Source: Hydrogenophaga sp. (GTDB lineage: Bacteria; Pseudomonadota; Gammaproteobacteria; Burkholderiales; Burkholderiaceae_C). From it: 64,000 nucleotides of DNA. Below are positions 1,330 to 15,704 of this stretch, in pieces. Under the pieces are notes generated by a model. That model did not search any database and was not told the origin of the DNA. It saw nothing but the letters and a program-made list of their open reading frames with translations. Numbering within the stretch: position 1 is the stretch's first letter; each line of letters opens with the position of its first letter. The translations under genes and the position numbers were made by a program. The stretch lies in NCBI GenBank assembly GCA_016741995.1, contig JACVCO010000003.1, positions 124,001-188,000 on the forward strand, given 5' to 3'.

Positions 1330-1817
1330 GCGAGGCCCTCCCCTTTCTGCGCCGGGCCGATCGCCTGAACCAGCGCGATCACGCCGGTCAGCAGCAGCGG
1401 CGGCACCATGAAGGCGTAGGTGATCCACTCGGGAAAGCCGAGCATCATGGTGGTGGTCATGGAGTCGTGGGCGCTGATGCCGCCGATGGCGGTGCGCCAG
1501 GCGATCACGGTGAGCATGATGGAGAGCAGCAGCGCTCCGAAGCGATCGAACATGGCGTTGACGGACGCCGGCGCCTTGGCGGTGAAGAAGTCCACGATGA
1601 TGTTTTCGCGGCGCAGCTGGCACAGCGGCATGAACAGCGCAACGGCCGCGCCCGCGGCCACGGCCGTGAGTTCGTAGTCGCCGAGGATGGTCCAGCCGGT
1701 GGTGTTGCGGCCGATGAGGCTGACGCAGGTGACCAGCGTCACAGCGGTGAGGATGAAGCCGGCCAGCACCGCGCAGACCTGGGCTAAGAACGAGAGGAAC
1801 TTCAAGGCGGGGTCCAT
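1326..1817 (-). CDS. dctQ: TRAP transporter small permease, DctQ type
   Basis: The product is a 163-residue membrane protein with about four predicted helices and a charged loop after the second (QLRRENIIVDFF), the usual DctQ layout. In TRAP systems this subunit pairs with DctM in the inner membrane and helps receive the substrate from the periplasmic DctP protein. It lies 88 bases downstream of dctP and overlaps dctM by four bases, so all three parts of one transporter are together. The length agrees with the family (about 160-200 residues). Confidence 0.92.
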   Translation of the reverse strand: MDPALKFLSFLAQVCAVLAGFILTAVTLVTCVSLIGRNTTGWTILGDYELTAVAAGAAVALFMPLCQLRRENIIVDFFTAKAPASVNAMFDRFGALLLSIMLTVIAWRTAIGGISAHDSMTTTMMLGFPEWITYAFMVPPLLLTGVIALVQAIGPAQKGEGLA

Positions 1818-1905
1818 TCAGAAAATCAAGCCGATCCGTCCCGGCGCAAACCAGGGCGGACCGGCATGCAGCGGCCCTCGCAGGGGCCGTCGGTGAAAGC
1901 CGGGA

Positions 1906-2943
1906 TTATCGGCTGTGCTTCGCGATCAGGGCACGTGCCTCTGCAGCAAGCTTCGCGCCATCGATGCCCTTGCCCTTCACTTCGTTGATCCAGTCGGTTT
2001 CCACCGTGGACGCGGTGCGGCGCCAGCGCTGGGTTTCGGCAGCGTCCAGGGACACGATGTTGTTGCCGGCCTTGACCGCGATCTCGCGGCCGGCCTTGTC
2101 GCCGTCGTCCATCGCGCGGCCGAACATGGCCGCCGTCTCGATGCCCGAGTTCTTGTCGATCACGGCCTTCAGGTCGGCCGGCAGCTTCTCGTAAGAGGCC
2201 TTGTTCATGGAGAAGGCGAAGGTCTGGGTGTACAGGCCTTCCTTGCCGGCGAAGGTGGTGTGGTTCTTCACCAGCTCGCTCACCTTGAGCGCGGGCGTCA
2301 CCTCCCAGGGGATGGTGGTGCCGTCGATGGTGCCTTTGGTGAGCGCGTCGGTGACGGCCGGCACCGGCATGCCCACCGGCGTGGCGCCGAGCTTCACGAG
2401 CATGTTGTTGATGATGCGCGAGCCGCCACGCACCTTCATGCCGCGCAGGCTCTCCAGGCCGGTGACGGGCGTCTTGGTGTGGAACAGGCCCGGGCCGTGG
2501 GTGTGGACCGCGATGAGCTTGACGTCCTTGAACTCGTCGGCCGCGTACATCTCGACGTACTCCTGGATGGCGCGCGAGGACGCCACGGGGTCACCGCTCA
2601 TGAAGGGCAGTTCGAAGACTTCGGTCTTGGGGAAACGGCCAGGCGTGTAGCCCAGCACCGTCCAGGTCAGGTCGACAACGCCGTCGCGCGCCTGGTCGAA
2701 CAGCTGCGGCGGTGCGCCACCGAGCTGCATGGCGTGGAACAACTGCACCTTGATGCGGCCACCCGATTCGGCTTCGACTTTCTGCGCCCAGGGCGTGAGC
2801 GCGCGGGCGGGGATCGTGGCCTGCCCGGGCAGCATCTGGTGCAGGCGCAGGGTCACGGTCTGGGCCATGGCGGTACCGGCCAGCGTGGCCGCGGCCACCG
2901 CCCCCAGCACCGCCAGCGCGGTGCGTCGCTTCAGGAACTTCAT
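1906..2943 (-). CDS. dctP: TRAP transporter periplasmic solute-binding protein, DctP type (copy 1)
   Basis: The 345-residue protein has a signal peptide (KFLKRRTALAVLGAVAAATL, likely cleaved after TAMA at residue 27) followed by a DctP domain. It would capture the substrate in the periplasm for DctQM. The start at 2943 is preceded by GGAGACA at good spacing; a longer frame to 3024 lacks this and would bury the signal peptide. It is strikingly similar to the second DctP at 7320-8360: whole blocks such as KVRGGSR, LGATPVGMPVPAVT and ADLKAVIDKNSGIETA match. Copy 1 has its permeases next to it and copy 2 does not. The substrate is unknown. Confidence 0.93.
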   Translation of the reverse strand: MKFLKRRTALAVLGAVAAATLAGTAMAQTVTLRLHQMLPGQATIPARALTPWAQKVEAESGGRIKVQLFHAMQLGGAPPQLFDQARDGVVDLTWTVLGYTPGRFPKTEVFELPFMSGDPVASSRAIQEYVEMYAADEFKDVKLIAVHTHGPGLFHTKTPVTGLESLRGMKVRGGSRIINNMLVKLGATPVGMPVPAVTDALTKGTIDGTTIPWEVTPALKVSELVKNHTTFAGKEGLYTQTFAFSMNKASYEKLPADLKAVIDKNSGIETAAMFGRAMDDGDKAGREIAVKAGNNIVSLDAAETQRWRRTASTVETDWINEVKGKGIDGAKLAAEARALIAKHSR

Positions 2944-15028: not shown

Positions 15029-15094
15029 GGGTGGGTCTCCGGCGGTGCTTTCCTGGGTTCGTTGTTTCGTATCGTGCCTGCTTGTGTGGCGGGT

Positions 15095-15329
15095 GTCAGG
15101 GCGGTGCCCCCGGGCCGGGCGGCGCAACTGCGGCGGTCCTCGCGTTGCGAGGACTCCCCTGTGGTGCTCGGGCGAGCGGCCCACGGCATAACTCACTGCG
15201 CGAGCTCTGCTCGCTCCGTTCAAACAGATGCCGTGAGTCAGTCAACAAAGCGCGCTGCGCGCGCGGCCGCTCCCCCTGCGCTCCTCGGCGCCGCACATGC
15301 GCCGCCCAACCCGGGAGCACCGCCCTGAC
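15095..15329 (+). repeat. Palindromic element A (about 235 bases, terminal inverted repeats)
   Basis: Ends 15095-15126 and 15298-15329 are near-perfect inverted repeats (GTCAGGGCGGTGC at each tip). Inside are an eight-base hairpin (GTCCTCGC/GCGAGGAC, 15136-15154), a stem CACGGCAT/ATGCCGTG (15182-15189 with 15228-15235) and a hairpin GCGAGC/GCTCGC (15200-15214). Single-stranded parts such as CCCTGTGGTGCTCGGG (15157-15172) are shared with element B, which lies in the opposite orientation. Confidence 0.8.
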
Positions 15330-15374
15330 GCTGACGTGGTTGGTTTTCCACCGGTGGCGTGCCGACATCTCGCT

Positions 15375-15613
15375 GGCCGAGGGCTTGGGCTGTGTGGCCG
15401 GGGGCGCCTGTGCGCAGCCGAGGAGCGCAGGGTGGGTGGGCGCGCGCGCAGCGCGCTTCGTTGACTGATTCGCGGCGGCTGTTTGAGCGGAATTCGCAAC
15501 GCGCATGCAGCGAGTTCCGCCGCGGCCCAGCCACCCGAGCACCACAGGGCACCCTTCGCGCAGCGAAGGGCTGCGCAGTGAAGCCCCTGGCCACACAGCC
15601 CAAGCCCTCGGCC
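15375..15613 (-). repeat. Palindromic element B, inverted relative of element A
   Basis: Ends 15375-15417 and 15571-15613 are inverted repeats beginning GGCCGAGGGCTTGGGCTGTG, different in sequence from those of element A. Internal stems are CGCGGCGG/CCGCCGCG (15471-15478 with 15517-15524) and CCCTTCGC/GCGAAGGG (15552-15570). Read on the minus strand, unpaired segments match A (CCCTGTGGTGCTCGGG, CAAACAG, TCAGTCAAC, CCCTGCGCTCCTCGGC), while the stems differ in sequence but keep pairing. Confidence 0.8.
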
Positions 15614-15704
15614 CGCCACCAAAGCTGGCATTCACAACAGACACCGGCCACGTCTCCTCGTCCAAACCCCGGGAAAACCCGCACGCCATTCAGAGGGCTG
15701 CGGA

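Follow-up and report, generated by a model that had tools for sequence, protein, structure and literature searches.

The window analysed here, a stretch of 64,000 nucleotides from a Hydrogenophaga genome, contains two large palindromes lying side by side between an amidohydrolase-like gene that starts at ~15027 on the minus strand and an enoyl-CoA hydratase-like gene that starts at ~15762 on the plus strand, both named by eye from their translations. The question raised by this locus is what kind of entity the palindromes represent. A sequence-only reading had described them as two elements in opposite orientation, with stems that differ in sequence and still pair, and had suggested either a mobile non-autonomous element or a structured RNA. 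Its sequences, coordinates and orientations are correct, and the three stem pairs it quoted are present, with different letters in the two copies. Unit A (15095-15329, plus strand) and unit B (15375-15613, minus strand) are homologous and can be aligned over their length. The arms of A (15095-15135 and 15289-15329) are 88% complementary, as are those of B (15372-15419 and 15569-15616), and in each unit the arms close three internal hairpins that are common to both, again with differing stem letters. What had been taken for two separate elements is better described as the paired ends of one element of ~0.56 kb, an arrangement that recurs in other genomes (see below).

Folding places the first hairpin of A at 15136-15154 (GTCCTCGC-GTT-GCGAGGAC, helix 2 of the covariation analysis) and the second at 15182-15235 (CACGGCAT...ATGCCGTG, helix 4), where AACTC and TCAAACA are conserved and unpaired. 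The following segment, 15236-15264, begins with the conserved unpaired AGTCAGTCAACAAA and ends in hairpin 3, GCGCGC-TGC-GCGCGC, and is supported by folding, covariation and conservation. The predicted counterparts in B, all on the minus strand, are hairpin 1 at 15552-15570 (CCCTTCGC...GCGAAGGG), hairpin 2 at 15472-15525 (CGCGGCGG...CCGCCGCG) and hairpin 3 at 15442-15456. Between the two ends lies a short spacer (15330-15374), which has relatives in two other copies of the same genome (C12 and C7) and corresponds to the position where other copies carry genes. Outside the units there is an additional inverted repeat of ~20 nt; its left part occupies 15075-15094 (the TGCCTGCTTGTGTGGCGGG region), of which 15075-15093 is 84% complementary to the right part at 15612-15630 on the minus strand. 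Such outer repeats are more general, as the outer 26-nt flanks of 16 pairs gave a mean of 14.6 mutual matches out of 26, compared with 10.3 for more distant flanks.

Both units fold far better than expected from their composition. With RNA parameters the z values are -11.6 for A and -10.3 for B, with DNA parameters, on opposite strands, they are -10.5 and -10.6, and in each case none of 200 dinucleotide shuffles folded as well. Covariation was examined in 31 of 41 units extracted from six genomes of one genus, the ten others being left out because one was truncated, one contained an internal duplication and eight had a divergent type of end. Standard pairs make up 96.9% of the 1638 pair cells, and changes on both sides occur at 29 of the 53 pairs. 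For four of five measures none of 500 shuffles reached the observed value, while 497 of 500 did so for the fifth (further pair types), and six controls in which the pairing was slid gave far lower values than the real pairing. Conservation is higher in unpaired than in paired columns, 0.84 vs 0.73 in A3 (p 4e-4) and 0.89 vs 0.83 in A2 (p 0.03), where the p values are descriptive only, because cells and related units are not independent. The positions of mismatches and bulges, as well as the letters of the loops, are kept across units of many genera. The earlier proposal of selection on a folded structure with compensatory change is thus borne out by the foldability of A and B and by covariation beyond that of shuffled units.

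The genome of the window (82% complete, 29 contigs) contains eight core copies, of which three lie at a contig end or close to one; the eight include further copies of A, and unit B has a 95% identical copy on G000:C7. A nucleotide search found units in 13 of 60 genomes, counting the genome itself. A covariance model of the unit core (R1), built from the 31 units, reached considerably further, with matches in 178 of the 299 genomes sampled from the GTDB family, and in 93 of its 141 genera, in a survey that scored 8 candidates per genome. In each of 8 genomes searched more deeply there are 15-36 units. Across the order, 53 of 250 genomes have matches, 47 of the 53 lying outside the family, and the units there are often shorter (140-170 nt), with some of full length; overall, unit length ranges from ~140 to 240 nt. 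At least 80 named loci were obtained by pattern search, and the genera among the matches listed include Hydrogenophaga, Rubrivivax, Aquabacterium, Methylibium, Rhizobacter, Variovorax, Rhodoferax, Albitalea, Inhella and Pelomonas. The divergent end type was left out of R1, so the unit counts are probably lower bounds. Elements with this type were seen in G025, G035 and G015 (L051-L056, L058, L060), where it is paired with a normal end. The search of Burkholderiales genomes that the sequence-only reading had proposed therefore yielded many dispersed copies in which covariation is kept, rather than the two isolated copies, or homologues with decayed pairing, that would have spoken against it.

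The inverted arrangement seen in the window is the rule. R1 finds 127 units in 80 named loci among the matches listed, and in this set, of 45 adjacent units no more than 3.5 kb apart, 44 are in +/- order, pointing inward. The core-to-core gaps are 53-285 nt in 40 cases and 712-2485 nt in four, the widest being that of L135, whose left unit is a weak match. Twenty units without a partner are close to the edge of their locus, and for 19 of the 127 no partner was detected despite at least 700 nt of sequence on the partner side, again among the matches listed. Each pair combines ends of two types, for example a GTCAGG-type with a GCCGAGGGCTTGG-type end in Hydrogenophaga. In G222 and G241, with eight dimers each, the spacers are mostly related while the outer flanks differ, and from this we infer that the dimer moves, rather than the single unit; the spacers of four G235 dimers look unrelated. 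A +/- pair spanning 13 kb in G276 (L378) was rejected as a single element, as it encloses ordinary-looking chromosomal ORFs.

Comparison with related genomes shows sites without the element. The joined flanks of 12 elements were searched against G000, G028 and G022 by flank-wise alignment. The window site is uninterrupted in G022, where the span that is absent corresponds approximately to 15062-15663 (limits set by eye, ± ~15 nt or more on each side), and the site of the G000:C7 element is uninterrupted in both G022 and G028. The flanks of L042 and L044 are 64 and 76 nt apart in G022, and for the remaining elements the flanks were either not found together or lie 0.8-6.2 kb apart. The latter are L048, L049 and L050, whose flanks in G000 (for L050 also in G028) enclose no R1 match; L321-L324 are the counterparts. 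At the window locus, G028 has an extra ligase-like ORF and no unit. The G000:C7 element lies between two converging stop codons, separated by 4 nt in G022, which leaves room for a target duplication of ~2-3 nt at most; none is visible there, and at the other sites the flanks have diverged. Out of 77 pairs, 60 could be classified by gene context in a rough, ORF-based way (another 8 gave no clear assignment, and the flanks of 9 were too short to be used): 14 have convergent neighbours, 41 co-directional and 5 divergent ones, the window copy being one of these five. Inverted paired ends, dispersed copies and a window site that is uninterrupted in a relative all agree with the suggested mobile non-autonomous element.

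Most pairs enclose only a short spacer, and some enclose one to three genes of lower GC content. These include a putative AbiC (PF16872, with weak AbiP/AbiC matches in PADLOC), a MauJ-like protein (PF17419), DUF6678 and DUF1963 proteins, a Phd/YefM protein with a YoeB-like toxin, an 8xMP membrane protein and several genes with no family match. The element at L042 contains a phage-integrase-family fragment just under the cut-off (1766-2044, minus strand), together with two further ORFs; by eye the fragment resembles the C-terminus of an integron integrase. No transposase was found inside the elements examined. The interior GC content is 44-58% in 11 of 12 cases, compared with 69% for the window and 55-67% overall for eight source loci; the exception, L376, has 66%, and its content may be ordinary chromosome. 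Orthologous positions were compared at two loci. At one, between cupin and GST genes, L041 and L119 have the flanks and both units in common and enclose unrelated interiors of ~1.4 and ~0.65 kb, while the genome of the window has A, a short spacer and the start of B, followed by the contig end. At the other, L042 and L325 share the flanks and unit B, again with unrelated interiors; in L325 (1680-1715), unit A has been lost through a deletion that runs from within one arm up to the outer repeat, and unit B and the cargo remain. L041 and L042 have a similar stretch of 71 nt next to unit B. The cargo thus differs at the same place, which is consistent with exchange in place or with repeated insertion at a preferred site. 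Two other observations concern the cupin/GST site. In L223 (G022:C1, ~852493) a short stretch like the left outer repeat leads directly to the stop codon of the GST gene, an arrangement that may be a deletion scar with TCAG microhomology, and in other genomes of the genus Hydrogenophaga (L224, L226, L229-L231, L237) the site is occupied by a second, different palindromic family, often an inverted dimer of ~290 bp as judged by eye.

The explanation that we consider probable is a non-autonomous mobile element with inverted, branched DNA-hairpin ends, ~240 nt each in the copy described here and shorter in some other families, which hold a short spacer or accessory genes between them. When the outward strand is exposed, a hairpin would be extruded at each end; an enzyme supplied in trans would recognise both ends by their bulges and conserved unpaired bases and cut near the outer ~20-nt inverted repeat, and the element would be moved to another intergenic site. 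Cargo may be gained or swapped between the ends, either by the mobilising enzyme or by homologous recombination between copies.

Other explanations start from the same palindromes. They might be passive, their arms kept alike by template switching during replication, and be spread as MITEs of a DDE transposon by way of the outer ~20-nt repeats. Arm-to-arm copying gives Watson-Crick covariation too and predicts the near absence of half-changed pairs that is observed; the outer repeats exceed their control, and the deletion between the arms of unit A in L325 is typical of palindromes. The same copying should, however, erase the mismatches, bulges and loop letters that are kept across genera, so the conserved bulge pattern counts against it, as does the strand asymmetry in folding described below. 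MITEs and TIMEs resemble the element in being non-autonomous, in having outer inverted repeats and in their ability to bracket genes, as MITEs reportedly do in the MITE-bracketed integron units of Acinetobacter (PMC3934969). For the outer repeats of the element, no autonomous transposon that shares them was noticed. Ordinary MITEs are not known to have a conserved interior, whereas the element has a covarying one conserved across many genera, with no target duplication seen. Passive palindromes are judged unlikely. A family of structured RNAs or transcription terminators, carried around by chance, would explain the very stable folds and the intergenic sites with few divergent neighbours, but gives no obvious reason for inverted pairing. 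No Rfam family scored above its gathering cut-off with the units, nor did any below it come near its own. The kinds of base pair bear on this alternative most directly. Among the matches listed, 124 distinct units give 5407 Watson-Crick, 59 G-T, 109 A-C and 202 other cells at 51 of the 53 pairs, those being mostly Watson-Crick, and GU makes up 1.1% of the canonical cells at consensus pairs, against 9.9% in the RNase P RNA of 13 Hydrogenophaga genomes. That RNA shows 41 two-sided and 43 one-sided standard changes. The 31 units, treated by the same pipeline, show 242 two-sided and 4 one-sided changes (to wobble) and 2.1% GU, with 30 of the 33 GU cells at one position. Other controls are less clear-cut: RNase P from 29 genomes of the order has 80 two-sided vs 12 one-sided changes and 3.6% GU at 13 usable pairs, and the best 60 named-locus units, refolded, have 732 vs 46 and 3.75%. 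In free folds of single sequences the gap is also smaller, with GU at 6.1-6.5% on the top strand of the units and 7.1-7.5% on the other, vs 9.5-10.4% for RNase P, which is also more diverged than the units (68% vs 78% mean identity), and 9.8% for shuffled units. With DNA parameters, better folding is predicted for the outward strand, the one that at its end reads 5' to 3' from the interior of the element towards its exterior, in 139 of 150 units (105/109, 32/39 and 2/2 by set), and arm mismatches in the 150 units, read on the other strand, comprise 121 A-C, 59 G-T and 342 others. Near-pure Watson-Crick covariation and the outward-strand preference favour folded DNA, and on balance the constraint appears to act on DNA, with mixed wobble controls. 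The structured RNA suggested by the sequence-only reading is thus not favoured, and is given a low probability.

A further alternative concerns the enzyme, which may be an integron integrase acting on the hairpins as distant attC-like sites. The attC sites are structure-conserved DNA hairpins of one strand with conserved unpaired bases, and integron cassettes carry single accessory genes. The predicted folds of the element likewise involve one DNA strand with conserved unpaired bases, its accessory genes of foreign composition resemble cassette genes, and L042 contains the integrase-like remnant. IntI shows a loose association with the units: with a best E < 1e-60 (reached in 136 genomes, while 131 pass the family cut-off) it is present in 99 of 178 genomes with units and 37 of 121 without, or conversely units are found in 99 of the 136 IntI-positive and 79 of the 163 other genomes (odds ratio 2.85, p 2e-5, not corrected for phylogeny). 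Against this, 79 of the 178 unit-bearing genomes have no IntI at this threshold, so that IntI does not seem to be required, and the surroundings of the 30 best intI genes, 1.5 kb to each side, contain no convincing unit; the two best matches there, weak R1 hits in L353 and L358 (E 0.0004 and 0.002), look like coding sequence, similar by eye to that of a LysR-type regulator. The ends of attC sites carry boxes with the consensus RYYYAAC / GTTRRRY, and none of 41 units has such a pair at its ends; nor do 12 cargo interiors contain an attC by a strict pattern. The element also has two unlike ends that are inverted, whereas attC sites are direct, and its copies are dispersed rather than arrayed. 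An integron integrase as mover is given a low probability.

A Y1 HUH enzyme (RAYT) was rejected as the mover. Y1_Tnp genes occur in 13 of 15 unit-bearing genomes, as one copy in 12 of them, and G307 and G157, with 23 and 29 units, are without one. Around 14 of these Y1_Tnp genes no unit was found at a distance of up to 1.5 kb, the best model hit there having an E value of 0.038. Over 299 genomes, Y1_Tnp shows no association with the units: 132 of the 178 unit-bearing genomes have it, as do 90 of the 121 others (odds ratio 0.99, p 1), which leaves 46 of the 178 without it. The mover would be a structure-specific nuclease or recombinase acting in trans. Carriage by phages or plasmids was also rejected: unit B has no blastn match in plasmids or phages, one G222 dimer gave a single 57-nt match in plasmids, and two patterns found 0 and 1 stretch in viral contigs. 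One IMG/VR contig classed as viral (L361, 1889-2448) contains a unit dimer.

In organisation the element resembles REP/REPIN sequences with their RAYT (TnpA-REP, Y1 HUH), likewise dispersed intergenic dimers of inverted hairpins that are non-autonomous and thought to be moved in trans, and the inverted dimer arrangement is shared in the 44 of 45 adjacent units mentioned above. In contrast, the element can hold gene cargo, was not found beside the 14 Y1_Tnp genes inspected, and has GTAG/GTGG at the foot of only 6 of 41 units, not enriched over a random expectation of 15%. Its units of ~140-240 nt are also much longer than REP units, given as 21-65 nt in PMC6006769. The BRE (beta-proteobacterial repeat element), a mostly intergenic repeat of function unknown in Comamonadaceae and Bordetella, is 75-91 bp long and often tandem (PMC3110155); a partial overlap of its sequence with the unit is possible. 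The element is not described in the available portions of PMC3110155, PMC5460862 and PMC6006769, and no account of it was found in the open-access literature searched. The first impression of an unrecognised family thus holds, the units matching no Rfam family and lacking, beside the shared traits named above, other defining features of both REP/REPIN and attC.

The hairpins of known folded-DNA elements (attC, REP, the ends of IS200/IS605) are mostly smaller. The element described here has a large, branched and clearly covarying fold at both ends, occurs across much of the order and can carry and change accessory genes. More tentatively, and rather doubtfully at present, the element could represent a new class of gene capture, a chromosomal slot with two unlike folded-DNA ends in which genes are exchanged by a dedicated structure-specific recombinase, independently of integrons; such a class would occur in over half of the species sampled from the family. 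If the reading as a mobile element is right, it would provide environmental Burkholderiales with an added route for the exchange of defence, toxin-antitoxin and unknown genes, and the covarying sites would form a set with which the mobilising enzyme may be sought.
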